This document shows, piece after piece, positions 2,989-26,721 of a stretch of DNA of 64,000 nucleotides; position 1 is the stretch's first letter; the number at the start of each line of letters is the position of its first letter. Source of the DNA: Actinoplanes teichomyceticus ATCC 31121 (GTDB lineage: Bacteria; Actinomycetota; Actinomycetes; Mycobacteriales; Micromonosporaceae); NCBI RefSeq assembly GCF_003711105.1, contig NZ_CP023865.1, forward strand, positions 5,109,001 to 5,173,000, written 5' to 3'. Below the pieces are notes generated by a model. That model was not told where the DNA came from, did no database searches, and saw only the letters and a list, made by a program, of their open reading frames with translations. The position numbers and the translations under genes were made by a program.

Positions 2989-4001
2989 CGTGCCCTCCGT
3001 GTGACCAGTCGCTGCATGACGATGAAGCCGAACAGCAGGACGCCGATGACGATCCGCGTCCACGCCGAGTTCAGGTCACCCTGGAAATTGATGATGGTTT
3101 GAATCAGGCCGGTGACCAGCACGCCCAGCAGCGTGCCCAAGACGTACCCGGAGCCGCCGGTGAGCAGCACGCCGCCGATCACGCAGGCGGCGATCGCGTC
3201 CAGCTCCAGGCCGTTGCCCTGCAGCGCCCAGCCGGAGGTGGAGTTGATGCTGAACAGCACGCCGCCGAGCGCCGCGCAGAAGCCGCTGAGCGTGTACACC
3301 GCGATCCGGGTGCGCCCGACCGGCAGGCCCATCAGCAGCGCCGAGTCGGCGCTGCCGCCGATCGCGTAGACGTTGCGGCCGAATCGGGTCCAGGCCAGCA
3401 CCGCCGCCGCGATCAGCACCGACGCCAGCGCGACGATCGCGATCGGCGTGGTCTTGACCCCGTCGGCCAGCGGGATGCGCAGGTCGGAGAGGCTGCGCCA
3501 GAGCTCGTCGCGGATCGGGATGGACTCCTGGTTGATGAACAGCGCCAGGCCCCGGGCCAGGAACAGCCCGGCCAGGGTGGCGATGAACGGCTCCACCTTG
3601 AAGAAGTGGATCACCGCCCCCATGCCGGCGCCGAGCAGCGCGCCGAGCAGCAGCACCAGCGGCAGGACCAGCAGCGGTGGCCAGCCGCCCTGCAGCAGGG
3701 TCGCGGTCAGCGTGGTGGTGAGCGAGATGACCGCGCCGACCGACAGGTCGATGCCGCCGGTGATGATCACGAACGTCATCCCGACCGCGACCACCAGCAG
3801 GACCGCGTTGTCGCGGAACAGGTTGACCACGACGCTGGGCTGGCCGAAGTTCTCGTAGTTGGCCACCCCGCTGAGGTACATGACCAGCAGCAGCGACAGG
3901 GTCGCCAGGATCGGGACGTACTTGGCGTTCGGCCGGTAGACCCGGCGGCGCGGGTTGACCGCCGGGTCCTTGGAGACCGCCTGGGGACTCATGATGGTCA
4001 T
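2985..4001 (-). CDS. yjfF: Sugar ABC transporter permease (YjfF type)
   Basis: A 338-residue inner-membrane permease of the ribose/galactofuranose (BPD_transp_2) family with about eight to ten hydrophobic segments after a basic cytoplasmic N-terminus. The loop [21 protein letters not shown] is the family signature. It forms the channel together with the permease encoded just upstream, powered by the double ATPase. The start ATG (4001) overlaps the stop of the upstream permease gene (ATGA, 3998-4001); an alternative ATG at 3992 removes three residues. Its own stop overlaps the araA start, so translation is probably coupled along the operon. Confidence 0.9.
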
Positions 4002-5017
4002 GCGGGCACCTCCGCCCGGACAGCCGGGCGCGGCTTGAAGCGCCCGAGCACCTTCTCCCGGAAGGTCGTGGACTGGGACAGGCAGAGGACGACCACGACG
4101 ACCGCCTTGAACAGCAGCGTGGCCTTGGCCGGAACGCCGATGGCGACGACCGTGATGGACAGCGTCTGGATCAGGATCGCGCCGATCACCGTGCCGGCCA
4201 GGGAGAACCGGCCGCCGATCAGCGCGGTGCCACCGATCACGACGGCCAGGATGGCGTCGAGCTCGATCAGGTTGCCGGCCGAGATGCTGTCCGCGCTCTT
4301 GATGTTGGCGCTGTAGATCAGACCGGCCAGGCCGGCGAACGCGCCGGACACCACGTACACCATCACGGTGATGCGGCGCGCCCGGATGCCGGCCAGCCGG
4401 CTGGCGCTCGGGCTGCCGCCGACCGACTCCAGCAGCAGGCCGAGGGCGGTACGCCGGGTCAGCACCACGATCAGCGCCACCGCGGCCATCGCGATCAGGA
4501 ACGCCACCGGCAGCGCGAGGAAGAACCCGGAGGCGATGGTCGCGTACGGGCTGGACTGCACGTTGATGATCTGCCCGTCGGTGATCAGCTGCGCGACACC
4601 GCGCCCGGCCACCATCAGGATGAGCGTGGCGATGATCGGCTGGATCCCGACCACCGCGACCAGCGCCCCGTTCCACAGGCCGAGCACGGCCGAGACGGCG
4701 ATCGCGATCGCCATGATCAGCAGCACCGGGCCGGCCGCGTTCTGGTCGCCGAGGTCTTTGATCAGCAGGCAGGCCACCGCGCCGGAGATCGCCATCACCG
4801 AGCCGACCGACAGGTCGATGCCGCCGGTGGCGATCACCAGCGTCATGCCCAGCGCGACCAGGACCAGCGGCGCGCTGCCACGCAGGATGTCGATCAGCGT
4901 GCCGAACAGGTGGCCGTCGTGGACGGTCAGGAACTGGTTGGAGGTGAACACGTTGACGACCAGCAGCGCCACCAGGATGGCGGCGGGCCAGAACAGCCGG
5001 TTCTTCAGGATGGTCAT
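3998..5017 (-). CDS. ytfT: Sugar ABC transporter permease (YtfT type)
   Basis: A 339-residue multi-pass permease of the same family as its downstream neighbour but clearly diverged, as expected for a heterodimeric channel. The signature [20 protein letters not shown] is present, as is a second hydrophobic signature near LDAILAVVIGGTALIGG. A short C-terminal tail is basic and cytoplasmic. Both ends overlap neighbours by ATGA (5014-5017 and 3998-4001). In E. coli the equivalent pair YtfT/YjfF imports galactofuranose; here the linked araA makes L-arabinose a more likely substrate. That assignment is inference. Confidence 0.9.
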   Translation of the reverse strand: MTILKNRLFWPAAILVALLVVNVFTSNQFLTVHDGHLFGTLIDILRGSAPLVLVALGMTLVIATGGIDLSVGSVMAISGAVACLLIKDLGDQNAAGPVLLIMAIAIAVSAVLGLWNGALVAVVGIQPIIATLILMVAGRGVAQLITDGQIINVQSSPYATIASGFFLALPVAFLIAMAAVALIVVLTRRTALGLLLESVGGSPSASRLAGIRARRITVMVYVVSGAFAGLAGLIYSANIKSADSISAGNLIELDAILAVVIGGTALIGGRFSLAGTVIGAILIQTLSITVVAIGVPAKATLLFKAVVVVVLCLSQSTTFREKVLGRFKPRPAVRAEVPA

Positions 5018-6546
5018 GAGGTAGCTCCGCTGGCGATGGTCTGCATGATGCGATCGGCGTCGACCCCGGCGGTGTTGTCCAGTTCCTCGACCAGCCGCCG
5101 GTCCCGCAGTACCGCGATCTTGTGACTGAGCCGGAGGACCTCCTCCAGCTCGGCGCTGACGAACAGCACCGCCATGCCGCCGTCGGACAGCTCGGCGACC
5201 AGCTTCTGGATCTCCGCCTTGGCGCCGACGTCGATGCCCCGGGTCGGCTCGTCGATGATGAGCAGCCGCGGCTCGGTGATCAGCCAGCGGGCCAGCAGCA
5301 CCTTCTGCTGGTTGCCGCCGGACAGGTTGCGGACCGGGCGCTCCGGGTCGGCCGGCCGGATCTGCAGGGCCTTGATGTACTTGTCGACGATCTCGTCCTG
5401 CTTGCGGCGCGGGATCGGGCGCGCCCAGCCGCGGGCGGCCTGCAGAGCCAGGATGATGTTCTCCCGCACGCTCAGGTCGCCGATGATGCCCTCGGTGCGG
5501 CGGTTCTCCGAGGAGAAGGCGATCCCCCGCTTCATCGCCGCCTGGGGGTCGCGCAGCGTGACCGGCTTGCCGTCGATGGTCAGCTCGCCCTGGTCGGCCC
5601 GGTCCGCGCCGAAGAGCAGCCGGGCCAGCTCGGTCCGGCCGGAACCGAGCAACCCGGCCAGGCCGACCACCTCGCCGGCGTGGATGGTCAGGTCGAACGG
5701 GGCGATCGCCCCGGCCCGGCCGACGCCCCGGGCCTGCAGGACCGGTGCGGCGCCGGCGGTCCCGGTCCGGGAGCGCTGCGCCTTGTCCTCCAGGCCCTCC
5801 AGCTCGGCCAGCTCCTTGCCGATCATCTTCTGGACGAGCTGCACCTGGGTCAGCTCGGCGGTGCGGTACTCACCGATGAGCTGGCCGTTGCGCAACACGG
5901 TCAGCCGGTCGGAGACCTCGTAGATCTGGTCCAGGAAGTGCGAGACGAACAGGATCGCCACACCGTCGGCCTTGAGCCGGCGCATCACCGTGAACAGCTG
6001 CTCCACCTCGGAGGCGTCCAGACTGGACGTCGGCTCGTCGAGGATGAGTACCCGGGCGTCGATGTCGATCGCCCGGGCGATCGCCACCATCTGCTGGATG
6101 GCCAGCGAATAGCTGCTCAGCGGCGCGGTGACGTCGAGATCGAGGTCGAGCCGGCGGAGCAGCTCGGCGGAGCGCCTGCGCATCCGTCCCCACTGGATCT
6201 TGCCGAAGCGCCGCGGTTCCCGGCCGATGAAGATGTTCTCCGCCACCGAGAGGTTGGTGCAGAGGTTGACCTCCTGGTAGACGGTGCTGATCCCGACCTT
6301 CTGGGCGGCCAGCGGCCCGCTGATCCGGACCGTCCGGCCGGCCAGCCGGATCTCGCCGCCGTCGACCTCGTAGACGCCGGTGAGGACCTTGATCAGGGTG
6401 GACTTGCCGGCGCCGTTCTCGCCCATCAGGGCGTGCACCTCGCCGGGGAACAGCCGAAAGTCGACGCCGTCCAGGGCGACGACGCCGGGGAAGACCTTGC
6501 GGATGCCGGTCATCTCGAGGACCGGTTCGGTTATGGGTTCACCCAT
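5014..6546 (-). CDS. ytfR: Sugar ABC transporter ATP-binding protein with two NBDs (YtfR type)
   Basis: A 510-residue fused double ATPase that energises the two permeases from the cytoplasmic face. The N-terminal half has a complete Walker A (GENGAGKSTLIKVL), Q-loop and Walker B (VLILDEPTSSLD). The C-terminal half has the degenerate Walker A GLLGSGRTELARLL usual for this family, a full signature LSGGNQQKVLLARWL and Walker B LLIIDEPTRGID. The ATG at 6546 is chosen over an upstream in-frame start because GGAG lies 9 nt before it and the domain begins there. A large hairpin separates it from the binding-protein gene. Confidence 0.93.
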   Translation of the reverse strand: MGEPITEPVLEMTGIRKVFPGVVALDGVDFRLFPGEVHALMGENGAGKSTLIKVLTGVYEVDGGEIRLAGRTVRISGPLAAQKVGISTVYQEVNLCTNLSVAENIFIGREPRRFGKIQWGRMRRRSAELLRRLDLDLDVTAPLSSYSLAIQQMVAIARAIDIDARVLILDEPTSSLDASEVEQLFTVMRRLKADGVAILFVSHFLDQIYEVSDRLTVLRNGQLIGEYRTAELTQVQLVQKMIGKELAELEGLEDKAQRSRTGTAGAAPVLQARGVGRAGAIAPFDLTIHAGEVVGLAGLLGSGRTELARLLFGADRADQGELTIDGKPVTLRDPQAAMKRGIAFSSENRRTEGIIGDLSVRENIILALQAARGWARPIPRRKQDEIVDKYIKALQIRPADPERPVRNLSGGNQQKVLLARWLITEPRLLIIDEPTRGIDVGAKAEIQKLVAELSDGGMAVLFVSAELEEVLRLSHKIAVLRDRRLVEELDNTAGVDADRIMQTIASGATS

Positions 6547-6566
6547 CGTGCACTCCGTTCCGCGGC

Positions 6567-6600
6567 GTGCGGACCGTCCCGGGCCCGGGACGGTCCGCAC
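6567..6600. other. 34-bp perfect palindrome between ytfQ and ytfR
   Basis: Two 17-bp arms (GTGCGGACCGTCCCGGG and its exact complement) meet without a loop in the 64-nt spacer between the binding-protein gene and the ATPase gene. On RNA this is a very stable hairpin. In binding-protein operons such hairpins commonly stabilise the upstream mRNA or partly terminate transcription, so that binding protein exceeds membrane subunits. Confidence 0.6.
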
Positions 6601-6610
6601 CTGCCTTGAC

Positions 6611-7594
6611 TCAGTACTTGCGGTCCGGGAGGGCGGCCTTGGCCTGCTCCGGGGTGAAGGTGGTCTCCTCGGTGAGGACCCGCTGCGGGACGTCCTCGCC
6701 GGCCTTGACCTTCTTGGCCAGGTCCATCAGCTGCTTGCCGAGGAGCGGGCTGCACTCCACGATGTAGTTGATCTTGCCGGCGGCGAGCGCCGTCATGCCG
6801 TCCTTGACCGCGTCCACCGTGATGATCTTGATGTCCTTGCCGGGCTTCTTGCCGGCCGCCTCGATCGCCTCGATGGCCCCGAGACCCATGTCGTCGTTGT
6901 GCGCGTAGAGCACGTCGATGTCCGGAGTGGACTGGAGGAACTGCTCCATCACAGTCTTGCCGTCGGCGCGCTTGAAGTCACCCGTCTGCGCCTTGACGAT
7001 CTTGATGTTCGGGTTCGCCTTGATCGCCTCGGCGAAGCCCTTCTGGCGGTCGATGGCCGGCGCCGAGCCCGTGGTGCCCTGCAGCTCCACGACGTTGACC
7101 GGCTCGTTCTTGCCCTCGTACTCCTTGACCAGCCAGTTACCGGCCTTCTTGCCCTCCTCGACGAAGTCCGAGCCGAGGAAGGTCTTGTACAGCGAGGTGT
7201 CCTGCGAGTCCACCGCGCGGTCGGTCAGGATCACCGGGATGTCGGCGTCCTTGGCCTCCTTCAGCACCGCGTCCCAGCCGGAGGTGACCACCGGCGAGAA
7301 GGCGATGACGTCGACCTTCTGCGTGATGAAGCCACGGATCGCGGCGATCTGCTGCTCCTGCTTGCCGCCGGCGTCGGAGAACTTGAGCTCGAAGCCCGCG
7401 GCGGCCGCCTCCGCCTGGATGTCCTTGGTGTTCGCGGTACGCCAGCCGCTCTCCGCGCCCACCTGGGAGAAGCCGAGGACCAGCTTGCCGTCGTCCCCGC
7501 CGGAGCCCTTGTCGTCGCCACCACCGCAACCGGCCAGCGCGGACACGGCCAGCAGGCCGGTCACCGCCGCCGCCATCATCTTCACACGCACCAT
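6611..7594 (-). CDS. ytfQ: Sugar ABC transporter substrate-binding lipoprotein (YtfQ type)
   Basis: A 327-residue periplasmic-binding-protein-like lipoprotein. It has a hydrophobic signal sequence with lipobox LAGC around residue 23, then a Gly/Asp linker and a two-lobed sugar-binding fold. The mature part resembles E. coli YtfQ: LGFSQVGAESGWR, SPVVTSGWDAVLKEAKDA, VVELQGTTGSAPAIDRQKG and YAHNDDMGLGAI are recognisable. A strong AGGAGGT lies only 1 nt before the ATG at 7594, so initiation could instead use the GTG at codon 2 or codon 4. The promoter region carries two LacI-type operators shared with the divergent regulator. Confidence 0.92.
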   Translation of the reverse strand: MVRVKMMAAAVTGLLAVSALAGCGGGDDKGSGGDDGKLVLGFSQVGAESGWRTANTKDIQAEAAAAGFELKFSDAGGKQEQQIAAIRGFITQKVDVIAFSPVVTSGWDAVLKEAKDADIPVILTDRAVDSQDTSLYKTFLGSDFVEEGKKAGNWLVKEYEGKNEPVNVVELQGTTGSAPAIDRQKGFAEAIKANPNIKIVKAQTGDFKRADGKTVMEQFLQSTPDIDVLYAHNDDMGLGAIEAIEAAGKKPGKDIKIITVDAVKDGMTALAAGKINYIVECSPLLGKQLMDLAKKVKAGEDVPQRVLTEETTFTPEQAKAALPDRKY

Positions 7595-7607
7595 AACCTC
7601 CTGAAAC

Positions 7608-7621
7608 TGTTACCGTTAACA
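7608..7621. promoter_or_regulatory. LacI-type operator 1 upstream of ytfQ
   Basis: TGTTACCGTTAACA is a near-perfect inverted repeat centred on CG, the usual form of LacI/GalR-family operators. It lies just upstream of the ytfQ ribosome site, so repressor bound here would block transcription of the operon. Confidence 0.65.
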
Positions 7622-7706
7622 AATAAGCAGCGGAAGGCACACTGGTGCCAGGGCCGCGGAGTTCTTACGGGGGCTGCGACCGCCGTCACAGCTTGCGTTT
7701 CGTGAG

Positions 7707-7720
7707 TGTTACCGTTCTCA
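7707..7720. promoter_or_regulatory. LacI-type operator 2 in the ytfQ-lacI intergenic region
   Basis: TGTTACCGTTCTCA repeats the first ten bases of the site about 100 bp away, with a degenerate right arm. Two copies in the divergent spacer suggest joint control of the operon and the regulator gene, possibly by looping. Confidence 0.55.
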
Positions 7721-7819
7721 ACGTGAACGTCAAGAGATCAGGATCGTTGTTTCCGGGAGATTGCAAGAACGGCGGTATCACCCCCGGTCGCCGAACGATC
7801 ACCTGCTAGGAATCGTCCA

Positions 7820-8914
7820 ATGCCGACCTCTGACCCGGCGCCGGACGGCGAGCCGGCTGCCCAGACACCCGTCACCGTGATCCGGCCGCGCCCCGGCAAG
7901 GAGCGCGGCAGCGTCATGCGCGACGTGGCCAAACTGGCCGGCGTGTCACACCAGACGGTCTCCCGGGTGATCAACGATCATCCCAACGTCCGGCCCGAGA
8001 CCCGGGAACGCGTGCTGGCCGCCATGCGCTCGCTCAACTATCGGCGCAACCTCGCCGCCCGCACCCTGGCCACCCGCGAGTCCCGCACCCTCGGCATCAT
8101 CGGCTTCGAGACCACCCTGTTCGGACCCGAGTCGATGCTCTACGGCATCGAGAGCGCCGCCCGCGCCGCCGGCTACCTGGTCAGCGTGGCGACCGTCCGC
8201 GAACTGGCCCACCGCCCGGTCCGCGAGGCGGTGGACCGGCTCGCCCAGCACGACGTCGACGGCATCATCGCGATCGCCCCGAAACCCGCCGTGACCACGG
8301 CGCTCACCCACGCGCCGACCGGCCTGACCTGTGTCGCGGTGGGCGGCGCCGGTTCCGGCGCCGATCCGTTTCCCACCGTACGGGTGGACAACGTGGCCGG
8401 GGCTCGCCTCGCCACCCAGCACCTGCTCGACCTCGGCCACGCCACCGTGCACCACGTCGCCGGGCCACCCGACTGGCCGGAGGCCCAGGCCCGGGTGGAG
8501 GGCTGGCGGGAGACCCTGTACGCGGCCGGCGCGGTCGTTCCCCCGGTCGTGCCCGGCGGGTGGGACGCCGCCGCCGGTTACGAGCAGGGCCGCCGGCTGT
8601 CCGCCGATCCGTCGGTGACCGCGGTGTTCTGCGCCAACGACCGGATCGCGCTGGGCGTGCTGCGGGCCCTGCACGAGTCCGGCCGGCGGGTGCCGGAGGA
8701 CGTCAGCGTGGTCGGCTTCGACGACATGCCGGACTCGGGCTACTTCCTGCCCCCGCTGACCACCGTCCACCAGGACTTCGCCGAACTGGGGCGGCGCGCT
8801 CTGGCCCTGCTGCTGCATCACATGTCCCGGGCCGACGGCGAGACCCCGCCGTCGAACGTGGTGGTGGCCCCGCAGGTGGTGCGGCGGGCCAGCACCGGTC
8901 CGGGCAGCGCCTGA
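7820..8914 (+). CDS. LacI-family transcriptional regulator
   Basis: A 364-residue repressor-type regulator. After about 33 poorly conserved residues there is a LacI helix-turn-helix (MRDVAKLAGVSHQTVSRVIN, residues about 34-53) with hinge segment LNYRRNLAARTLATR. A sugar-binding periplasmic-type domain follows, with motifs GIIGFETTLFGP, PDWPEAQARVEGW, VFCANDRIALGVLRAL and VVGFDDMPDSGYF. It is transcribed away from the ytfQRT-yjfF-araA operon, and the spacer holds two operator copies, so it very likely controls that operon in response to the sugar. AGGAA lies 7 nt before the ATG. Confidence 0.93.
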   Translation: MPTSDPAPDGEPAAQTPVTVIRPRPGKERGSVMRDVAKLAGVSHQTVSRVINDHPNVRPETRERVLAAMRSLNYRRNLAARTLATRESRTLGIIGFETTLFGPESMLYGIESAARAAGYLVSVATVRELAHRPVREAVDRLAQHDVDGIIAIAPKPAVTTALTHAPTGLTCVAVGGAGSGADPFPTVRVDNVAGARLATQHLLDLGHATVHHVAGPPDWPEAQARVEGWRETLYAAGAVVPPVVPGGWDAAAGYEQGRRLSADPSVTAVFCANDRIALGVLRALHESGRRVPEDVSVVGFDDMPDSGYFLPPLTTVHQDFAELGRRALALLLHHMSRADGETPPSNVVVAPQVVRRASTGPGSA

Positions 8915-8962
8915 AGCCGCGGCGACCGGGCCGGCGGGCAGTGATCCGGGCGGCGGCGCACT

Positions 8963-9075
8963 GCCCCGGCCGTCAATCATCGCAACGCGGCGTACCGCCC
9001 CGGCCCGGCAGTCATCGCAACCGCGGCGCACCGCCCCGGCCCGGCAGTCATCGCAACCGCGGCGCACCGCCCCGG
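8963..9075. repeat. Tandem repeat, 36-bp unit, three copies
   Basis: A unit containing CAGTCATCGCAACCGCGGCG occurs twice almost identically and once in a diverged form after the LacI gene. The array sits in a 262-bp gap and is not part of a gene. Confidence 0.6.
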
Positions 9076-9176
9076 TGCGCGATGGTCGGGCCGCGGTGGG
9101 CCGGCTCCGGGTGCGCCCGGGCGGACACCCGCCGGGAGCCACCGCCTGATGTCCGCCGATCCGCTAGATTGCCGCC

Positions 9177-9656
9177 ATGATCGAAGCCGGCGTTCCCGTG
9201 TTCGCGCTGCTGGTGGCGGCCTTCCTGGTTCTCGTCCCGGCCGGGGTGGGGATCACCATGATCGCTGCCGGCCTGCGCCGCTGGAACCACGTGCGCCGCC
9301 TCACCGCGACCGGCGAACGGGCGACGGCCACCGTGGTCGACAACCAGATGGAGGCGCACCGGCACGGCCTGATGCGTTTCCTGCCGGTCGTCACGTTCGT
9401 CACCCGGACCGGCCGGGAGATCCGTACGGTGCTCACCGACCAGAGCAGCAACCGGTCCCACCTGCCCGGATCCCAGCAGACCGTCGCCTTCGACCCGGAA
9501 CGGCCGGACCAAGCGGTCTCCACCACCGGCCAGGCCCCCGGAACGGTGAGCGCGGTCATCATGGGCGCCATCTTCCTGCTCTTCGCCGGCGTCGCGCTGT
9601 TCCTGACCAGCCTGATCTTCCTGTCCCCCGGCAGCCCGCTCACCGACCTGCCCTGA
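9177..9656 (+). CDS. DUF3592 membrane protein
   Basis: A 159-residue protein with a hydrophobic helix at about residues 7-30, a soluble middle and a second helix at about 122-150. The middle (GERATATVVDNQM, VVTFVTRTGREIRTVL, VAFDPERPDQA) matches the DUF3592 beta-rich domain of unknown function, usually displayed on one face of the membrane between two helices. TAGATT at 9165-9170 ends exactly 6 nt before the ATG, so the transcript is probably leaderless. The last codons and stop lie inside a tandem repeat that continues downstream. Confidence 0.75.
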   Translation: MIEAGVPVFALLVAAFLVLVPAGVGITMIAAGLRRWNHVRRLTATGERATATVVDNQMEAHRHGLMRFLPVVTFVTRTGREIRTVLTDQSSNRSHLPGSQQTVAFDPERPDQAVSTTGQAPGTVSAVIMGAIFLLFAGVALFLTSLIFLSPGSPLTDLP

Positions 9657-16440: not shown

Positions 16441-16592
16441 ACGACACGACTCCGGCACATTATCGGAATTCGCCGCCCGACGACCGTGATCAATCAGGAT
16501 GGGGGTCCGGCCCGGTCGTGCCCGGCGCCCTATTTTCACCGCACCCCGCCGAGCGTGGTGTCATCACCATCGGTGTTGTTTCCCGCCTGTCC

Positions 16593-16807
16593 GCTCCGGC
16601 TCGCCGCCCCGCCGTGCTGGGCTCACCGCTCGTCCGCTCCGGCTCGCCGCCCCTCCGTGCTCGGCTCACCGCTCGTCCGCTCCGGTTCGCCGGCCCTCCG
16701 CGCTGGGCTCACCGCTCGTCCGCTCCGGCTCGCCGCCCCTCCGCGCTGGGCTCACCGCTCGTCCGCTCCGGCTCGCCGCCCCTCCGCGCTGGGCTCCCCG
16801 CTCCTGC
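16593..16807. repeat. Tandem repeat, 43-bp unit, five copies
   Basis: Five head-to-tail copies of a 43-bp unit (beginning GCTCCGGCTCGCCGCCCCTC and ending CCGCTCGTCC). Only a few substitutions separate copies. The unit is not a multiple of three, so no frame is kept. It occupies the centre of the 690-bp gap 16251-16939, which holds no recognised gene. It could be a variable-number locus. Confidence 0.8.
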
Positions 16808-16939
16808 GGGCGTGCCGGGCGCCTGGCAGCGACCCCGGGGCCGCGCCGGGGCGCGCCGCGGCCGGGGCGCCCCCGCGGGCTTGACCTTGCCCCTGGGGCA
16901 GGGCTCACGGTGGACCCGAGGGACGGGCGGGTCGTCTCC

Positions 16940-19900
16940 TCAGCGGCGGTGGCGGGAGAGGCGGCGGGCGGAGTCGTGATGCGGCAGATGCAGCGGATCG
17001 GGCAGGCCGTGGGCGGCGGACAGGCCGTCCGGCTGCTGGACGAGGTGTCCCGCGGCGACCAGGTCGGCCATCAGGCCGGTCAGGCGGGCGTCGAGCGCCG
17101 TCGAGCGCCGGGTGGACCATCCGTAGAGCTTGGTGACCGCGGCCAGCAGTTCGTCGATGGCCATGACGCCGCCGTCGATCACCAGGTTCTCCAGGGCCAC
17201 CGCGAGCTCGGCGTCGGAGATCTGATCGGCCTTGCGGGCCACGCCCTGGGCCCGGCGGCGGACGACCGGGTGACCCTGGCGCGGGTCGGCGAGGAAGGCG
17301 CCGTCCCAGACCACGCCGGCCTCCTCGATCGCGGCCTCCACCGCGGCACGGGCCGGCCGGGTGATCCGGGTCAGGCCCCACTGTTCCCGCATCCGCTGCA
17401 GGACCACGCTGATGTGCACCGGGCCCTCGATCTCGGCCAGCCGCCGCACCGCGGCGACCAGCGCCGGACGCAGACCCGGGTCGGTGAGGACGGCGCCCGG
17501 CGGCAGCGGCGCCAGGTTCGCCTTGCGGTAGGGCCGAGCCCACTCGTCGGCGTGCGACACGGCCGTCCGGCCGCGCTCCGGGGCCGCCTCGACGGTCGCC
17601 TCCTCGTGGTGGATCCACCCGGGCGGAGCGGCCATCGTCTCCTCGAACTCGGCGACCGCGGCGGCGATGTCCGGCTGCCCCTCCATCGCCTGGTACCACG
17701 TGGGCCGTGGGGCCTCCCCGGCGTCCGCGTGGACGGACCGCTCGGCCACGGTGGCGGCCGCGTCGGCCAGGTCCGGGCTCAGGTCGGTGGACGTGAGCTC
17801 AGCGCGGATCTGCGAGATGGCGCCGAGACGGTCGGCGGGTTCGGTGGTCTCGTGCAGCCCGGCCAGGAACTGGGCGGCGGCCGCGGCCAGCTCCTCGGTG
17901 CCGACCCCGAACCGGGCGGCGACCTCAGCGAGGTCCTCACGGCTGGCGGCGGTGCGGTCGGCGAGGGCCGCGCTGGACCGGTCGGCCGGCGACACCATGC
18001 GTTCCGGTTCCGCGGGCTCCCCGCCGGTCGCGGCCGGCGACTCCACCGGCTCCCCGCGGGTCGCGACCGGCCACTCCACCGGCTCCCCGCGGGTCGCGAC
18101 CGGCCACTCCACGGGCGTGACCGTGCGCCCGGATTCGGCCGGCTCCTCCCGGGACGCCACCGGCCAGTCGACCGGCGAGACCGCGCGCCCGGATTCGGCC
18201 GGCTCCGGGCGGGCGATCGACGGCCAGTCGAACGCCGTGACCGTGCGTCCGCGGCCGACCGGCTCCTCCCGGGTCGCCGTCGGCCGGTCGAATGCCGTGC
18301 CGGCGCCCTCGGCGTCTTCCGCGGTTTCGCCGGGCTCAGCCGGTTGCGGCCGGGTCGCCGAGGGCCACTCGACCCGCTCGGGGACGTCGGCGCGGCTGGC
18401 GAACGGCCACTCCGCGCGGACCGGGGCGTCCTCGGCGGGCGACCGGTCCACCTGCTCGGGATCCCGCTGCTCTGCGGCGGGCACGTCACCGGCCTCGCGG
18501 TCGGCGGCCGGCCACTGCACCGGCGACACGTGACGTCCGCCGGGTCCGGCCGGGTGATCACCAGTGGCGAGCGGCCATGCCACCCGGTCCGGGGCGTCCG
18601 CCCGGCTGGCGAACGGCCACTCGGCGCGGACGGTCCGGTCGGTGGGGGCGGTGGGCCACGTGGCCGGGTCGGTGTGCCCGGCACCGGCCGCAGCCCGGCT
18701 CCGTGCGGCCGGAGCGGCGTCCTCGCCGGTCCGGGCGGCGTGCGCGCCCCGGCGGCCGGTGTCCTCGCCCCGGTAGGGTCGCAGCTCGGCGACCGTGCTC
18801 TCCAGGGTGGTGCCGAGGTAGGCCTCGGCGGCGGCGAGTTCCTCGGCTCCGGCCTGCGCGGCGGCGAACTCGGCCGAGACCCGGGCCAGGGCGGCGTGTT
18901 CGGCCGCGTGCGTCGCGGCGACGTCCGCCTCGGCGGCCTGGCCGAGGATCGGTTCGGCCCCACGCCCCCGCGCCTGGACCGGCGGCGGCTCGTCGTAATC
19001 GAAATCGGGCACGAGGGCGCCGTCATGGGGCTCGGCCGGGGCCGGCTGCGCGGGGCGGGCGCCGTCGGCGGCGTGCGCGGCGGCGAGGTCGGCCTCGGCG
19101 GCTGCCTCGGCCCCCGCCAGACCCAGGTCGTCGGCGTCGGTCCAGGAAAGGAGGCGCTCGGCAGCCACGCCCGCGTTCGAGGCGGCCCCGAGCTCGTCGG
19201 CCACCGCCTCCGTGAAAGCGGACACCGGCTGGCCGGCAGCGTGTTCGGCGAGCACGGACTCCGACTCGTCCGCAGCCTGTTCGGTGTACACGGGCTCCGA
19301 CTCGTCCGCAGCCTGTTCGGTGTACACGGGCTGAGGCTGGCGGGCACCGGCTCCCGGAGTCGCGGGCACCGACTCCTGCGCCGCGGGCGGGACGGGCCCG
19401 GCTTCCGGCACCCGTGCCACGGGCCGGACGGATCCGGCTTCCGGTGGCCGCGCCGCGGTCTGGGTGGAAGCGCCCTCCGGCGCCTCCGCGGCCGGTGGCA
19501 TCCCGGACACCGCGGCGGCGAGTTCCGCCTCCGGCACCGGCTCGCGCCGGACCTCGCCGGCCTCCGGAACGAGGCGGCCCCGCTGCGCGGCGAATGCCGG
19601 TTGCCCGGCCCCGCTCCGGTCGTCCGCGCGGGCTGCCGTCGCGGCCGGCACGACGGGCGCCTCGGTCTGCGCCGCCGTGTCGCCGTAGCCGGCGGCGTAG
19701 CTCTCCGCGGCCTCCGCCACCGAGTACTTCTCGGCAGACGGCGAGACCTTCTCCGCGGCCGGCGTGGTGGCGACCGCCAGCTGCGGCACCTCCGCGTCGG
19801 GCAGGGTGGCGAACGCCTCCTCGATCGCCGCCCGCAGCCGCGCCTCCTCCCGCTGCCGGTCCAGGTACCACGCGGTGCCCCAGATGCGATGCAGTCGCCA

Positions 19901-22900
19901 GCCCAGGCCGGTCAGCACCTGCTCGCGGATGCGGTCCCGGTCGCGGGCGGTGGGCGCGGAATCGTAGGTCGTGCCGTCGCACTCGATGCCGAGGGCGTAC
20001 GGCGCGTTGCGCCGGGCCGAGCGGCGCACCGCCAGGTCGATCCGGAACGCGCCGGCGCCGACCCGGGTGTGCACCCGGTAGCCCCAGCCGCGGATGACGT
20101 CGCGCACCGAGTCCTCGAACGGGGTCTGCGACTCGACGCCGTCCGGCTCCTCCAGCCGCAGCGCGGTCATTCCCCGGGCCGCGTAGTCGAGGTAACCGGC
20201 CAGGTGGCGCAGGCTGTCGTCGCCGTCGGGCAGGTCACGGGCGCGCAGCGCGGAGACGACCTCGACGCGCCGGCGGGCACGGGTGATCGCCACGTTCAGC
20301 CGGCGCCAGCCGTCCGCGCCGCGCAGGTCGTCGAACTCGTCACCGATCGCGAAGATCACCACGTCGCGTTCGTCGCCCTGCACGGCGTCCAGGTCCTTGA
20401 TGAAGAAGCCGCGCAACCGGTCGTCCTCGGGGGGCACGACCATGTCCGCGACGGCCGCCTCCACCGCGGCCGCGTCCTGCGGCGTGCACACCACCACGCC
20501 GAGGGTCAGTTCCGGCCGGGTGACCAGGTGATGTGCGACCCGGGTGGCGACCACTTCGGCCAGCGGCTGCTCGCCGGTGGCCGGGTAGAGCTGCACGCCC
20601 CCGTCCGGGCCGGCCGGCGCGAAGGCCGGGAAGGTGTTGAGCCGTCCCTGGTAGAACGCGTGGTTGGCGAACGCGATCAGCGACTCGTCGCGGCTGCGGT
20701 AATGCGTGGCCAGGTCGAGCGTGCGGAACGCTCCGCAGGCCAGGGCCAGTTCCAGGATCGACCGCTGGTCGCCGCCGGGGAGCGGGGCGGCGGTCAGTTG
20801 CCGGTCGTCGCCGCAGATCACCAGGGCGTTGCCCCGATAGACGCAGGTGAGCGCGTCGGGCACCGGCACCCGGGACGCCTCGTCGATGATCACCACGTCG
20901 AACGGCAGCCCGGCCGGCAGCAACCGGCTCACGTCGGCCGGCGACATCACCAGGCACGGTTTGACCGCCATCGCGGCGTGCATGGTGCGGGCGAACAGGT
21001 CGCGGACCGGCAGGCGGTTGCCGTGCTGGGCGGCGGAGGCGCGCAGCAGGGCCGCCTCGCCGGCCGCCGCCTCGGCCGGCTGCAGCGCGTCGACGGCATT
21101 CATCACCTCGGCCGCGGCGGCCCGCTGCAACCGGAGGTCCCAGATCCGGAACTCGTCGACGAGCCGGTCGCGGGAGACCGCGTCGAGCGGAGCGAGCCGG
21201 TCGTCGTCCCGGATGATCGCGTCGGCCCACGACTCGAAGAGCGCGCGGCCGAGGACCGGCAGGATTTGCTCGACCGGGAGGTCCTCGGCGGCGCAGAAGT
21301 CGACGACGGCGTCCAGGCCGTGCTCGGCGAGGATCGCACGAGCCGCCCGGTGCTCGAACCACTCCTGCTGGCCCTGGCTGTCCTCGAGGAACTCCCGCAG
21401 CAGCGCACCGGCGGAGTCGCGCTCGCCCAGGGCCGCGCCGAGGCTCGGGTGCCGGCTGGGCGCGAACGCGCGCAGGATCCAGTCCCGGGCAGCCTGCCAT
21501 TCGGCGACCCGGGCCGGCAGGACGTCGGTGAGACGCGCCCGGCCGAGAAGCTCGGCCTGCTCGGGGGTGAACGCGATGTCCGCGCCGTTGCGGATGCGCC
21601 TGGCCTCGGAGGTCCACGCCATCGCGGTGGCGAGCGCCTCCACGTCGGTCTGGGTGCCGCGGTAGGCGCTGCCGAGGACCCGGGCGTACTCCTTGGCGTT
21701 GGCCGACAGCGCCGCGGCGGCCTCCGCCGCGCTCTCCCGCAGCAGGCCGATCGCGGCCGCCTCCGCCAGGGTGAAATCCCGCCCGGCCGCGGCGCTGTAC
21801 GCCTGCACCAGCTCGGCGACCGCGGTGAGCGGCTCGACGTGGGCGCGCAGCCAGGTGACCGCGTCGTGGATCGGGCCGGCGCCCAGTTGCGGCCGGGGCG
21901 CGTGCTCGGGCGGCGGGCGCAGCGCGGCGGTCCACCGGTCGAACTCCTTGCCGGCCTCGCCGACGATCCGGATGATCGCGCTGTTCGGGGTGGGCGCGCA
22001 GATCCGCTCGATGAGGGTGGGCAGCGCCTCCGGCGGGGTGACCTGCAGCGTCTCCTCGGCGGTCCGCAGCGCGCGTTCGATCGCCTCGAAGTCGGTGTCC
22101 AGCCGCTGCCAGTGCCGGCCCAGGATGCCGGCGTGCTCGGCCTCCGCCTCGTCGAGCTCCTGCAGGGCCCGTTTCCAGGCGGCGGCAGCGCTCAGGTTGG
22201 CCACCGCCTGGGACCGTTTCACGTCGGACCGGGCGATCTGTGCGGCCGCCCGCTTGTCACGCCGGTACGGCGCCCGCAGCTTGCGGATCCCCCGGTACTG
22301 ATGGGCGAACCGCTCGGCCAGCTCGTCCACCGGCTCGGCCAGAGCGTTCTCGGTGAAGTACTCCCGGGCCCGTGTCTCGGCGGCCTTGACCACGTTGACC
22401 GCCCGCCGCAGGTGGCGCATCGCGGCGTGCGCGGCGTTGAGCCCGGGGCCGTCGAACCACGCGGGTTCCGGCTTGTCCGGGCGCGACAGCAGCTCGACGA
22501 TCGTCGCCAAGCGGGGCAGATCGGTGAACGCCACCACGTTGGGCAGCCCGAGCCGGGCGGTGACCCGGTCCAGGCTGTGCTGGTGCTGTTCGAGACGGTC
22601 GGCCTCGTCGGCGAACCGGCGAGCCAGGCCACGGGCTTGCGCGGCGGTCAACGGCAGCAGCTCGACGGCCGGCGGGCGCAGATGGCTCAGGCTCGGGATG
22701 ATCGGCAGCTTGCTGGGCGACGGCAGCGCGCTCCAGGTCACCCCGGCCCGGGCGCGGACCGCGTCCTCGGCCTGGTGCAGCGCCGTGAGATGGCGCAGCA
22801 GGCCCTCCGCGGCCCGGGCCACCGGTTCCAGGCTGTGCATGGTGAGCCACTCGTCCGCGGCCTCGGGCGGGCGGCGCGTGGCGTGCCCGACCAGCGTGGT

Positions 22901-24466
22901 CAGGGTGAGCGCCTCACCGATCGTGCCGATCGCGAACGCCTCGGCGAGCGGGTCGCGTTCGATCGCCTCGCTCAGGTGGTCCAGGGCCGTCTGCGCCTGA
23001 TGCAGGCGGGCGTCGAGGCGGTTGTGGTCGATCACGTCACGCCAGAGGAAGTCGTCGCCCTCCCGGGCCGGACGCCAGGCGCGGCTGAGGCGTTCGGCCG
23101 CGTCCCGGACCCGCTGCAACGACTGGGTGGTGAGCGGGATCGGCAGCTCGCCCAGCGCGGGTCCCTGCGGCACGTCGGTCATCTGCGCGCACATGCCCAG
23201 CACGTCGTGCAGGCGGTGGCCGAGCGGCTCGCGCACCTCGTTCATCGCCTCGGCGTACGCGTTGAGCCGTTGCCGGTGCTCGCGCAGCGCCTCCCGTTCG
23301 TCGGTGGACAGGTCCGGCGGCGGCAGCGGGATGAAGTCGAGCGCGGCGGCCAGCGCGGCCGCCACCTGGTGCCGGCCGGTCCGGCCGCTGTGCAGTTCGA
23401 GGAGGTAGTCGTCGAGACCGCTGGGGGCGAGCCGGTCCCGCACGGTGTCCAGCGCGGCGGCCTTCTCGGCGACGAACAGCACCCGCCGGCCGGCGTGCAG
23501 CAGGCAGCCGATCATGTTGGCGATCGTCTGCGACTTGCCGGTGCCGGGCGCGCCGCGCATCACGAAGGTGCGCCCGTGCAGCGCGGCGGTGATGCAGGCC
23601 CGCTGCGCGGCGTCGGCGTCGAGGACCAGCGGCACGTCGTCCGGGCTGGCCAGCTCGTCGATACGACGACCGGAGATCACGTCGAACTTGAACGCGTCGG
23701 ACTGCCCCTCGGGGCCGGTGGCCAGGGCCCGGACCACCGGATGGGCGAGGATCTGACGCTCGTGGTCGAGCAGGTCGGTGTACATCACCTCGCGGTGCAC
23801 GGCGAACCGGGTGAGCATCACCGCCTCGTCGGAGTGCCAGTCCGGATGGTCGCCGAGAGCGGCGTCCAGGCGCGCCCAGAAGACCGTGACGTCGAGGGCG
23901 GCCAGGCTGTCCACGGCGGGCAGCTCGATGTTGTGCCGGCGCAGGCAGATGTCCAGGGCCGGGTTGACGATCGGATCCTCGGCACGGACCCGCAGCCGCG
24001 GATAGTCCTGCGGATCCGGGGTGACCAGATCGACCGGGATCAGCAGGATCGGGCTGACGTGCTCACTGCCGTCGTCACGCCAGCGGACCGTGCCCAGCCC
24101 CAGGTAGAGCGAGGCGATGCCCTGTTCGAGCAGGTCACGGTGGGCGGCGCGGCGCAGCGCCCGCAGCGTGGTGTCCATCTCGGCGTCGGTCATCGCGGTC
24201 TGGAACACGTGGGTGGCCCGTGGCCGCGGCCCCTCCGCCTGCTCCTCGATGCCGAGGAAACCGCACTCACGGCCCTGCTGGAGAGCCTCCACGATGCTGC
24301 GCGGCGACGGGCTGACGATCTCCACCACGCCGGGCGCCGTGGCCCGTACGTCGATCAGCGGATTGGCGCCGGTGAGGTCGAGCAGCCCGTCCCGCCACGA
24401 CTCCAGCGTCGCCCGCACACGGGCATCAGGCCGCCCGGTCAACCCGTCCGATTGATCCCACCGCAT
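16940..24466 (-). CDS. Giant DUF4011 / SF1 helicase / PD-(D/E)XK nuclease / DUF3320 protein (Hhe-like)
   Basis: A 2508-residue protein. Order of parts: DUF4011-like N-terminus (about 15-230); SF1 helicase with Walker A GAPGTGKSQTIANMIG (about 300), Walker B VVIIDEASRVPVPDAL (about 1190), GDDRQLTAAPL, VQGDERDVVIFAIGDEF (about 1360) and RLNVAITRARRRVEVV (about 1400); a Vsr/MTES_1575-type PD-(D/E)XK nuclease (about 1440-1555; FRIDLAV and GIECDGTTYD, then RDRIREQVLTGLGWRLHRIW); a roughly 700-residue Ala/Glu/Pro-rich repeat linker; and a DUF3320-type C-terminus (about 2310-2508). This order matches the single-protein antiphage helicase-nuclease class named Hhe (DUF4011-helicase-Vsr), but with an unusually long linker. 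It is the second gene after a HIRAN protein gene. A DNA defence or repair role is inference. Confidence 0.85.
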   Translation of the reverse strand: MRWDQSDGLTGRPDARVRATLESWRDGLLDLTGANPLIDVRATAPGVVEIVSPSPRSIVEALQQGRECGFLGIEEQAEGPRPRATHVFQTAMTDAEMDTTLRALRRAAHRDLLEQGIASLYLGLGTVRWRDDGSEHVSPILLIPVDLVTPDPQDYPRLRVRAEDPIVNPALDICLRRHNIELPAVDSLAALDVTVFWARLDAALGDHPDWHSDEAVMLTRFAVHREVMYTDLLDHERQILAHPVVRALATGPEGQSDAFKFDVISGRRIDELASPDDVPLVLDADAAQRACITAALHGRTFVMRGAPGTGKSQTIANMIGCLLHAGRRVLFVAEKAAALDTVRDRLAPSGLDDYLLELHSGRTGRHQVAAALAAALDFIPLPPPDLSTDEREALREHRQRLNAYAEAMNEVREPLGHRLHDVLGMCAQMTDVPQGPALGELPIPLTTQSLQRVRDAAERLSRAWRPAREGDDFLWRDVIDHNRLDARLHQAQTALDHLSEAIERDPLAEAFAIGTIGEALTLTTLVGHATRRPPEAADEWLTMHSLEPVARAAEGLLRHLTALHQAEDAVRARAGVTWSALPSPSKLPIIPSLSHLRPPAVELLPLTAAQARGLARRFADEADRLEQHQHSLDRVTARLGLPNVVAFTDLPRLATIVELLSRPDKPEPAWFDGPGLNAAHAAMRHLRRAVNVVKAAETRAREYFTENALAEPVDELAERFAHQYRGIRKLRAPYRRDKRAAAQIARSDVKRSQAVANLSAAAAWKRALQELDEAEAEHAGILGRHWQRLDTDFEAIERALRTAEETLQVTPPEALPTLIERICAPTPNSAIIRIVGEAGKEFDRWTAALRPPPEHAPRPQLGAGPIHDAVTWLRAHVEPLTAVAELVQAYSAAAGRDFTLAEAAAIGLLRESAAEAAAALSANAKEYARVLGSAYRGTQTDVEALATAMAWTSEARRIRNGADIAFTPEQAELLGRARLTDVLPARVAEWQAARDWILRAFAPSRHPSLGAALGERDSAGALLREFLEDSQGQQEWFEHRAARAILAEHGLDAVVDFCAAEDLPVEQILPVLGRALFESWADAIIRDDDRLAPLDAVSRDRLVDEFRIWDLRLQRAAAAEVMNAVDALQPAEAAAGEAALLRASAAQHGNRLPVRDLFARTMHAAMAVKPCLVMSPADVSRLLPAGLPFDVVIIDEASRVPVPDALTCVYRGNALVICGDDRQLTAAPLPGGDQRSILELALACGAFRTLDLATHYRSRDESLIAFANHAFYQGRLNTFPAFAPAGPDGGVQLYPATGEQPLAEVVATRVAHHLVTRPELTLGVVVCTPQDAAAVEAAVADMVVPPEDDRLRGFFIKDLDAVQGDERDVVIFAIGDEFDDLRGADGWRRLNVAITRARRRVEVVSALRARDLPDGDDSLRHLAGYLDYAARGMTALRLEEPDGVESQTPFEDSVRDVIRGWGYRVHTRVGAGAFRIDLAVRRSARRNAPYALGIECDGTTYDSAPTARDRDRIREQVLTGLGWRLHRIWGTAWYLDRQREEARLRAAIEEAFATLPDAEVPQLAVATTPAAEKVSPSAEKYSVAEAAESYAAGYGDTAAQTEAPVVPAATAARADDRSGAGQPAFAAQRGRLVPEAGEVRREPVPEAELAAAVSGMPPAAEAPEGASTQTAARPPEAGSVRPVARVPEAGPVPPAAQESVPATPGAGARQPQPVYTEQAADESEPVYTEQAADESESVLAEHAAGQPVSAFTEAVADELGAASNAGVAAERLLSWTDADDLGLAGAEAAAEADLAAAHAADGARPAQPAPAEPHDGALVPDFDYDEPPPVQARGRGAEPILGQAAEADVAATHAAEHAALARVSAEFAAAQAGAEELAAAEAYLGTTLESTVAELRPYRGEDTGRRGAHAARTGEDAAPAARSRAAAGAGHTDPATWPTAPTDRTVRAEWPFASRADAPDRVAWPLATGDHPAGPGGRHVSPVQWPAADREAGDVPAAEQRDPEQVDRSPAEDAPVRAEWPFASRADVPERVEWPSATRPQPAEPGETAEDAEGAGTAFDRPTATREEPVGRGRTVTAFDWPSIARPEPAESGRAVSPVDWPVASREEPAESGRTVTPVEWPVATRGEPVEWPVATRGEPVESPAATGGEPAEPERMVSPADRSSAALADRTAASREDLAEVAARFGVGTEELAAAAAQFLAGLHETTEPADRLGAISQIRAELTSTDLSPDLADAAATVAERSVHADAGEAPRPTWYQAMEGQPDIAAAVAEFEETMAAPPGWIHHEEATVEAAPERGRTAVSHADEWARPYRKANLAPLPPGAVLTDPGLRPALVAAVRRLAEIEGPVHISVVLQRMREQWGLTRITRPARAAVEAAIEEAGVVWDGAFLADPRQGHPVVRRRAQGVARKADQISDAELAVALENLVIDGGVMAIDELLAAVTKLYGWSTRRSTALDARLTGLMADLVAAGHLVQQPDGLSAAHGLPDPLHLPHHDSARRLSRHRR
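18013..18125. repeat. 33-bp in-frame repeats in the helicase linker
   Basis: A 33-bp unit encoding an 11-residue motif of the PVEWPVATRGE type occurs in identical copies near 18040-18120, with diverged WP(F/V/S)A(S/T)R copies through 18000-18650. Identical adjacent copies point to recent expansion of a disordered linker. Confidence 0.7.
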
Positions 24467-24577
24467 TTTCCCATTCCAGCAAGGCGACGGGCCGCGTGGT
24501 GGCGTTTCCTCCGGTTAATCCGATGTTCCGCGCGGATCGGAGCAGACCGTTGCCTCAGCAGTCACACCGGTCCCACC

Positions 24578-26422
24578 TCAGTCCCAGGTGGGCACCCACC
24601 ACTGCCATCCGGCGGGCGCGAGCGGCCACGAGGCGTCCGGTCGCCAGCCCTCCGGCGGATACCACCCGTCCGGCGGGGCCGGCCAGCCCGGCGGGACCTG
24701 GAACTTGATGCCGGTGGGCGCGGGCGGGATCGGCGGGTGCCGGTTCGGCTCCGGCGCCGGCGACACCGGCGCGCTGCCGCCGGCCGCGGCCGCCTGCTGT
24801 TTCATCACCACGGCGCTGAGCGCCGGGATCACCGTGGTCTCGGCGATCTCGCCGGCCCCGCCGAACAGGCCGGCCGGCTGAGCGCCGGCGCTGGGCACCT
24901 GATCGGCCGGACCACCGAACAGACCCGACGACTGAACACCCGCGCCCGACACCTGACCGGCCGCACCACCGAACAGACCCGACGACTGAACACCCGCGCC
25001 CGACACCTGACCGGCCGCACCACCGAACAGACCCGACGACTGAACACCCGCGCCCGACACCTGACCGGCCGCACCACCGAACAGACCCGACGACTGAACA
25101 CCCGCGCCGGACACGGGGCCGGACGGGGCGTCGGCGCCGAACCGGTCGGCGGCATGTGCGCCGGCGGTCGGGGCCGGGCTGGTCGGGATGGCGCTGCCGG
25201 GCATCGGCGCGGTGGGCACGCCGGGGATCGGGTTGGCCGGGACCCCGGGGACCGGGACATCGGCGGCCTGACCTGCCGGAGCGCCGGACACCTGGCCGGA
25301 GCCGAACCCGGAACCCGGCGCGGATCCGGCGGCCGGGCCCGGGACGGCCCCGGCCGACTGGTCCTCCGGCTGACTTCTCCCGGCAATCGTCGGCACCGGG
25401 CCGCTGACCGAGGCCGCCCAGCTCGGCACCGGGCCGCTGGGCTGCACCCAGGTCGGCACCAGCTCGCTGCGGTCCATCCAGGTCGGCTGCGCGTCGCTGG
25501 GCGTGGCAGCCCACGAGGGCACGGCGTCGCTGGAACCCATCCAGCTCGGTACGGCCGACGTGCCGGCGGCGGGCAGGTCGGGGCCGGCCGCGGACGGCAC
25601 GACCGGGGTGCTCGCCGGGGACGGCGAGACCGGCGCTACCCGTCCGGCGGTGCCGCGCGCGGCCGGGCCGGTCCAGCTCTCCGGCAGGTCCTGGACCCGG
25701 GCGACGTACAGCAGCACCTCGGTCTTGACGGCGTTGCTCTTGACCACCGCGCGAGCCGCGACGACCAGGCCCCGCTCGCTCTGGTAGCGCAGCACCGGCG
25801 CGAGCTCCTGGCTCGTCTTCGGGCTCAGGTCACCGACCCGGGCGTCGCCGAGGCGTACCTCGACCAGGTGGTCGGCCATCTCGTGCAGGGTCACGTACGC
25901 CCAGCACTCGCCCTCCGGCCGCTGGAACGGCACGAGCGCGTCGAGATGCCGCTCCTGGCCGTTGACCTGGAGCGCGGAACCGGTGGGCAGCAACCGGTGC
26001 TCCTGCAGGGGCGGCTCGTTGGCCGGCACGATCATGTGCGGCTCGGCCAGGTCGAGGCGGATCGTGCCGACGAAGGCCGGTGGGCGGCCGTCGTACTCGC
26101 CCCACTCGCGTCCGTGGATCTGCGCGTTCACCTCGGGGATCAGGTTGCGCCTGGTCAGCGAGGTGAGAACGTGGACGTACCGGGCGGCCTCCGGCCGTGG
26201 CAGGTGGCCGAGGAGGGCGTTGTCGGACCAGACCCCGACGGCGTTGCGGTCGTGGCGGTTGCTGCGGTCGGGTATCAGCTGGACCGGTACGGTTATGTCG
26301 GTTCCCTGCGGGTCGAAGTCACTGCCGAAGAGGGCACGTATCGCCTTCGCGTAGTGCGTCTCGCCGACGACCTCGGCGCTTGCCCAGCCCGCTTGTCCCC
26401 AGAGTTGGAACCGATTTGCCAC
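24578..26422 (-). CDS. HIRAN-domain protein with repeat linker
   Basis: A 614-residue protein. Residues about 15-90 match a HIRAN domain (VVGETHYAKAIRALF, VQLIPDRSNRHDRNAVGVW, ALLGHLPRPEAARYV), a fold that in SWI/SNF helicases binds single-stranded 3' ends. A second folded region (about 100-235) follows, then a Pro/Ser/Gly-rich linker containing four 18-residue repeats (VSGAGVQSSGLFGGAAGQ type). The C-terminus is Trp-rich (PPGWPAPPDGWYPPEGW), like DUF2510 tails. GTG at 26422 follows TAGCGT by 6 nt, so the gene is probably leaderless. It lies 111 bp upstream of the helicase-nuclease gene on the same strand. A joint role in recognising and processing DNA is inference. Confidence 0.75.
   Translation of the reverse strand: MANRFQLWGQAGWASAEVVGETHYAKAIRALFGSDFDPQGTDITVPVQLIPDRSNRHDRNAVGVWSDNALLGHLPRPEAARYVHVLTSLTRRNLIPEVNAQIHGREWGEYDGRPPAFVGTIRLDLAEPHMIVPANEPPLQEHRLLPTGSALQVNGQERHLDALVPFQRPEGECWAYVTLHEMADHLVEVRLGDARVGDLSPKTSQELAPVLRYQSERGLVVAARAVVKSNAVKTEVLLYVARVQDLPESWTGPAARGTAGRVAPVSPSPASTPVVPSAAGPDLPAAGTSAVPSWMGSSDAVPSWAATPSDAQPTWMDRSELVPTWVQPSGPVPSWAASVSGPVPTIAGRSQPEDQSAGAVPGPAAGSAPGSGFGSGQVSGAPAGQAADVPVPGVPANPIPGVPTAPMPGSAIPTSPAPTAGAHAADRFGADAPSGPVSGAGVQSSGLFGGAAGQVSGAGVQSSGLFGGAAGQVSGAGVQSSGLFGGAAGQVSGAGVQSSGLFGGPADQVPSAGAQPAGLFGGAGEIAETTVIPALSAVVMKQQAAAAGGSAPVSPAPEPNRHPPIPPAPTGIKFQVPPGWPAPPDGWYPPEGWRPDASWPLAPAGWQWWVPTWD
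24896..25111. repeat. 54-bp in-frame repeat, four copies, in the HIRAN gene
   Basis: Four consecutive 54-bp units, each encoding 18 residues. The middle copies are identical at DNA level and the outer ones differ slightly; a diverged fifth copy lies just before 24896. The length is a multiple of three, so the frame is kept. Confidence 0.85.
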
Positions 26423-26721
26423 ACCGGAACGCTAGTGTCTGCTTTCCGTCAGTGACGTCGTCCATACGGATGACGACGGTCAGCCGGACGGTCCGTATCC
26501 GGAAGATCGACCCTCCGCGCCCGCGGGCCGCGCCAGAATGGCACGCCGCCGCCTGGACGAATCACCCAGTCGGCCCGTGCGGTAGACAAACCACCCGCCC
26601 GGCACGGCCGTCGGACAAGCCCGCGACAGCAGACAAGCCCCCGGAATGCCGCACCCGCCGACGAACCACCCGATCGCCGCGCCGGTCGCCACCCGCGACC
26701 CCGGACACACCCGGCGACGCG

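Follow-up and report, generated by a model that had tools for sequence, protein, structure and literature searches.

In the 64,000-nucleotide stretch of the Actinoplanes teichomyceticus genome that we analyzed (the window; C1:5109001-5173000 of a single contig of 8,287,152 bases), we found that the gene for a HIRAN protein (24578-26422, minus strand) and the gene for a giant DUF4011 helicase-nuclease (16940-24466, minus strand) form a real, well-conserved pair. This confirms the two-gene observation of a preliminary description of the window, and the same-strand adjacency reported there is borne out, with a gap of 111 bp (24467-24577) between the genes. What is new is an apparently tandem-HIRAN partner for a known kind of giant helicase-nuclease. 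We tentatively favor the reading that the pair is a two-part DNA-surveillance module, the likeliest duty of which would be a constant defense against phage or other linear DNA entering the cell.

Conservation of the gene pair

Among named genome contigs, we located relatives of the HIRAN part at 48 loci. Orthologues (at least 73% identity) are present at 16 of the 48 loci, all in Actinoplanes, to which the nearest named relatives of the HIRAN protein belong, and a helicase lies downstream on the same strand at 16/16. In 67 genomes of the GTDB genus, there are 50 HIRAN matches, 27 at 73–100% identity and 23 at 49–58%. Helicase orthologues (72–100% identity) occur in the same 27 genomes as the HIRAN orthologue, adjacent and on the same strand, and both orthologues are absent from 40 of the 67; an additional, non-orthologous HIRAN copy is found in 9 of the 27. 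The claimed conservation in relatives therefore stands, since all 27 genomes with either orthologue hold both side by side. Across 28 loci (the 27 genomes and one further named strain), the strands of the two genes agree in every case, 81–1030 bp separate them, and linker lengths range from 184 to 810 aa in the HIRAN protein and from 184 to 885 aa in the helicase. In the window and the 16 named loci, the HIRAN gene is called in 16 of 17; in those 16 there is an oxidoreductase upstream and the helicase downstream, with an extra open reading frame intervening once on the upstream side and a 62-aa one once on the downstream side, and the genes beyond the helicase vary. Co-occurrence in the same order, which the preliminary description proposed to examine, thus holds in 27/27 genomes but is confounded by descent, as both genes sit in one syntenic block. 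Because the block is syntenic and its neighbors are metabolic, the 27/27 pairing possibly goes back to one inherited event.

The preliminary description had also held helicases without a HIRAN neighbor in relatives to speak against a module, and here the results are divided. The orthologous helicase was never seen without HIRAN. On the other side, three DUF4011 genes in the window's own genome face a single HIRAN match above the cut-off. The two further DUF4011 giants (L008, G000:C1:5197482-5202092; L011, 5231820-5236559) lie about 63 and 98 kb off, both within about 111 kb of the pair, and score 796 and 988 bits for PDC-S37 and 749 and 963 bits for ProA; an own-genome HIRAN profile search found no HIRAN neighbor for either. 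These unpaired paralogues are a natural control for the role of the HIRAN partner. Among the matches listed, most other pair-bearing genomes have two or more further helicase matches at about 44–51% identity, often on the same contig. No helicase was found in the 23 non-orthologous HIRAN loci of the genus (about 17–20 kb fetched). A draw of 101 genomes across the family yielded 46 DUF4011 matches and 13 HIRAN matches; 3 of each pair up at no more than 10 kb, all in the window's genus. Of 394 genomes drawn from the class, 22 had a HIRAN match, the window's own included; among the 21 others, flanks were fetched for 16 (tblastn recognized 15 of them), and a DUF4011 or SNIPE match lay near HIRAN in 0/16. 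In the open-licence literature, we found no described system with the two-gene make-up of HIRAN protein and giant, nor the source of the ProA family.

Domains and setting of the two proteins

The HIRAN protein has 614 residues and a GTG start. The HIRAN assignment holds: a HIRAN fold is predicted, and the protein scores 23.9 bits in one search and 25.9 in another for Pfam HIRAN (PF08797), against a cut-off of 24.7; relatives score 28.1–32.8, with one at 23.3. From the model and a half-against-half match, the HIRAN part looks like two modules in tandem. Module 1 (26024-26404, residues ~7-133) has N55 and D58, an Asp that aligns to the HLTF NPYDKNA stretch and is invariant in 22/22 alignment rows; we take HLTF Y93 to fall on His57 (our own numbering). 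The HIRAN-like module 2 (25691-25987, residues ~146-244) has no N..D motif. It is followed by a low-complexity A/G/P/S linker (24743-25672), in which a 54-bp repeat occurs 4.7 times (24861-25114), and by a conserved Trp/Pro-rich C-terminal tail (24578-24715); some relatives carry DUF2510 at their C-terminus. All of these features, like those of the giant below, are on the minus strand. Elsewhere in the family, precomputed domains place TerD (PF02342) in the HIRAN proteins P0098, P0101 and P0102, and a 955-aa HIRAN protein (L109:8228-11095) has no effector domain recognized in Pfam (E 0.001) or PADLOC (E 1e-5). Another actinobacterial genome encodes a 997-aa fusion of HIRAN to an SNF2 helicase (L112:8060-11053), the layout of Rad5/HLTF.

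In the giant (2508 aa), DUF4011, the AAA_11/AAA_12 helicase parts, the MTES_1575 nuclease and DUF3320 each exceed their Pfam cut-offs, and the domain order first read from the sequence is upheld. DUF4011 (23951-24385, residues 28-172; 87 bits, cut-off 22.2) is followed by the N-terminal superfamily 1 (SF1) helicase motifs including Walker A (23420-23614, residues 285-349), the C-terminal helicase motifs (20252-20407, residues 1354-1405), the MTES_1575 (Vsr-like) nuclease (19823-20119, residues 1450-1548; 110.9 bits, cut-off 38.2), a low-complexity linker with short tandem repeats (17477-19726, residues ~1581-2330) and DUF3320 (17360-17476, residues 2331-2369; 29.1 bits, cut-off 25). The helicase motifs are conserved across the 28 loci, and catalytic-type residues of the nuclease are present in 28/28. 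The DUF4011 domain model has a pLDDT of 79.9 and no confident match in the PDB, where sequence matches of the giant are to helicase motor parts only (SMUBP-2, SEN1 and UPF1; 9 sequences). PADLOC ranks PDC-S37 best (880 bits, E 9.7e-265, over four stretches) and Hhe second (352 bits), a ranking of profiles given with no curated cut-off; PDC names denote candidate families.

Pfam matched 8 of 10 gene calls near the pair (one farther off, at 49852-53211) and left 2 without a match. By these matches, the neighbors are an aldolase, a solute-binding protein, a zinc-type oxidoreductase, a TetR regulator, an F420-type oxidoreductase, a PAS histidine kinase, an MCP/PilZ protein and a proline/aldehyde dehydrogenase, and they look like metabolic, transport, signaling or regulatory genes. 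A 3318-aa frame at 16499-26455 (plus strand), antisense to both genes, was rejected, its composition being that of a shadow of GC-rich coding. In plasmid records, the HIRAN part had 0 matches (E 1e-5), and the helicase had distant relatives on 315 records, every one below 60% identity. In this lineage, the module is a fixed chromosomal locus, apparently under vertical inheritance.

Other partners of the HIRAN family

A further HIRAN-helicase pairing, one among 32 non-orthologous loci, is found in Nocardioides albus (L082). The helicase there (3122-9562, 2146 aa) carries HEPN_Swt1, DUF4011, MTES_1575 and DUF3320, matches the giant on both the DUF4011 side and the nuclease side, and scores 1590 bits for anti-phage ProA (cut-off 1500) and 872 bits for PDC-S37. 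A tandem-HIRAN/DUF2510 gene follows 39 bp after it on the same strand, and both genes lie between HsdR and HsdM of a type I restriction system. At another locus, L063, the helicase match is weak (42 bits) and 8 kb away. In the class-wide draw, a gene call of 110 aa with a single HIRAN lies within a type I restriction locus (L171:4596-10651), where tblastn identified HsdR and HsdM.

Relatives of the HIRAN protein also keep company with other nucleases. In 9 of the 23 non-orthologous HIRAN loci of the genus, a SNIPE-type DUF4041+GIY-YIG nuclease (PD-Lambda-1) lies downstream on the same strand, and HIRAN and SNIPE form one open frame, with HIRAN N-terminal, in 7 of these 9 (L097, L099, L101, L102, L104, L105 and L106) and are separate in 2. 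Two such HIRAN-SNIPE proteins score 355 and 373 bits for PD-Lambda-1; domains of the fusions were read by Pfam for L060 and P0068 only, and L060:10010-12334 and L102 are apparently one locus. In the reverse direction the association is weaker, with a HIRAN neighbor for 1 of 16 DUF4041 matches in the family draw (compared by hand). The fused proteins have no strongly hydrophobic segment (KD19 up to 1.37), and HIRAN may replace the membrane anchor of SNIPE in them. At L073:6041-9566, two GTPase/dynamin-like genes stand directly upstream of a HIRAN-SNIPE reading. In Micromonospora haikouensis (L071:2607-10978, 17253-20753), where DISARM genes were sought within the fetched stretch, HIRAN directly follows DrmMI (1574 bits), with DrmD (1382 bits) upstream and DrmA (993 bits) 6 kb downstream of HIRAN. 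It is possible, if rather doubtful, that the tandem-HIRAN protein of Actinomycetes is an exchangeable DNA-end-sensing adaptor that was independently adopted by PDC-S37/ProA (here and in Nocardioides), SNIPE-type GIY-YIG and DISARM nucleases. The broader idea of one HIRAN family common to several nuclease systems is only partly supported, and it is a more interesting lead than the pair itself.

Function of the pair and comparison with known systems

HIRAN domains are known to bind the ends of DNA, and SF1 motors to move along it. In the module that we favor, the tandem-HIRAN protein would use module 1 to bind DNA ends, single-stranded 3' ends or fork-like structures being the likeliest, and its long flexible linker and Trp-rich tail would bring or license the helicase-nuclease. 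We infer that the two proteins interact physically; the giant would then translocate on DNA by its SF1 motor, read it with its DUF3320/winged helix-turn-helix (wHTH) end and cut its target with the MTES_1575 nuclease. End binding and translocation, combined with the prediction, in the accessible text of PMC3710099, that giant HEPN-transglutaminase-SF1-Vsr-wHTH proteins (MTES_1575) restrict DNA without modification genes, suggest that HIRAN marks ends or forks and that the giant acts there. According to the same text, the C-terminal wHTH of these giants, which overlaps DUF3320, probably reads DNA. HIRAN is best read as a sensor of DNA ends, or an adaptor, that serves nuclease effectors.

The preliminary description called the pair a candidate defense or repair module, and this is partly supported: the pairing and the domains stand, membership of class Hhe is not supported, and there is no enrichment near defense genes at this locus. 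The favored reading draws on the 27/27 paired orthologues, the motif conservation at 28 loci, the separate Nocardioides albus instance, the HIRAN relatives beside SNIPE and DISARM nucleases, and the proposal made for HipL/HipN that bacterial HIRAN domains may recognize phage DNA ends (PMC8262856, as far as its accessible text goes). Several observations weigh on the other side. The constancy of the pair is strong but, judging by the syntenic block, probably reflects one inherited event; outside Actinoplanes, L082 is the one locus with HIRAN and a DUF4011 helicase among the 32 non-orthologous loci; and among 7 class-wide matches that reach both modules, DUF4011 or SNIPE was found in 0/7 fetched flanks (3 of the 7 shortened by contig ends or without gene calls). 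Within the pair, the gap is as large as 1030 bp, and a longer linker in one partner does not go with a longer one in the other (rho –0.37, 28 loci). The giant falls below the NCBIfam cut-offs for Hhe (NF042953; 540 bits, cut-off 2000) and for anti-phage ProA (NF058533; 825.5 bits, cut-off 1500, best stretch in the second half). PADLOC (E 1e-5) matched 0 of the 10 neighboring gene calls, so the window locus is not a defense island.

That fixed, housekeeping location would suit a repair or fork-rescue pair without a defense role, in which HIRAN would, like that of HLTF/Rad5, locate the 3' ends of stalled forks or breaks for the giant to process. Synteny and conserved motifs kept in 27 genomes, metabolic and regulatory neighbors, the HIRAN-SNF2 fusion (L112) and the action of the HLTF HIRAN in fork remodeling (PMC4666394, accessible part) all agree with such a pair. 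However, 40 of the 67 genomes in this GTDB genus lack both orthologues, the nearest named families of the giant are anti-phage proteins, HIRAN relatives occur in restriction, SNIPE and DISARM loci, and distant helicase relatives are carried on those 315 plasmid records; we consider housekeeping repair fairly improbable. In P. aeruginosa, a DUF4011 gene is present in every isolate and flanks a defense hotspot (PMC10250203, accessible part), so a fixed locus alone does not exclude a link to defense. Because of the company that these families keep, defense is likelier than repair, though unproven.

The two genes may instead be neighbors without a shared function, separately useful in one inherited block and each acting alone like the HIRAN-free paralogues. 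The two paralogues without a nearby HIRAN match, the gaps of 81–1030 bp (in some loci large enough for a promoter), the syntenic upstream flank and the lack of a DUF4011 neighbor for most HIRAN relatives examined would fit this; yet the genes are adjacent on the same strand in 28/28 loci although those after the helicase vary, and a separate pairing at 39 bp exists in Nocardioides, which leaves mere neighborhood unlikely. Least probable by far is that the HIRAN protein is a brake on the helicase-nuclease, which would stay inactive until the HIRAN protein is titrated off by DNA ends, the arrangement proposed for HipN/HipI. Putative HipN antitoxins do have HIRAN domains (accessible text of PMC8262856), and the HIRAN gene at L158 adjoins a gene read as HipA-like (PADLOC PDC-M03A, only 28.9 bits), but in 7 of 9 SNIPE cases HIRAN and the nuclease share one chain, with HIRAN as its N-terminal part, a region that may be an adapter according to the accessible part of the SNIPE paper (PMC13190303). 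Helicase paralogues without a HIRAN protein also speak against a brake.

If a shared adaptor exists, one sensor would tell several effectors which DNA to cut, and the HIRAN-SNIPE fusions suggest a second way, besides the membrane anchor, of aiming SNIPE. With a putative end-sensing partner kept beside one of three paralogues in one genome, it can be tested on paired and unpaired helicases how restriction-like nucleases of the DUF4011 group, free of methylation marks, tell foreign from own DNA.

Compared with known systems, the giant is by sequence placed near PDC-S37, ProA and Hhe; its best match puts it inside PDC-S37, and it belongs to neither of the two NCBI equivalogs. PDC-S37, a PADLOC candidate single-gene defense system, shares the order DUF4011-helicase-MTES_1575-DUF3320; the HIRAN partner and the linker of ~730 aa are additions here. 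Anti-phage ProA resembles the giant's second half (825 bits), and the Nocardioides partner passes its cut-off, but L082 has HEPN_Swt1 and (weak) transglutaminase parts that find no match in the giant. Hhe (NF042953, PADLOC PDLC02194) shares the DUF4011 family and the corresponding helicase-nuclease part and differs by its much lower scores in NCBIfam and PADLOC. The MTES_1575 giants have the SF1 helicase, the Vsr-family nuclease and the wHTH/DUF3320 overlap in common with ours, in which their N-terminal HEPN and transglutaminase domains are unmatched (Pfam to E 0.1); the word HIRAN occurs 0 times in the accessible text (PMC3710099). SNIPE/PD-Lambda-1 nucleases are fused to or lie beside relatives of the HIRAN protein, but they are another effector, the accessible text of PMC13190303 has the word HIRAN 0 times, and the fusions lack a strongly hydrophobic segment. 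HipN/HipL and diDNase-HipA-HIRAN clusters also place HIRAN in a proposed defense setting with suggested DNA-end sensing (PMC8262856, PMC11706625, accessible parts), with a kinase or dinuclease as partner where ours is a helicase-nuclease. Finally, compared with the HIRAN of HLTF/Rad5 and bacterial lp_0118, the protein described here differs in its apparent tandem of two modules and lacks an SNF2 motor on its own chain.

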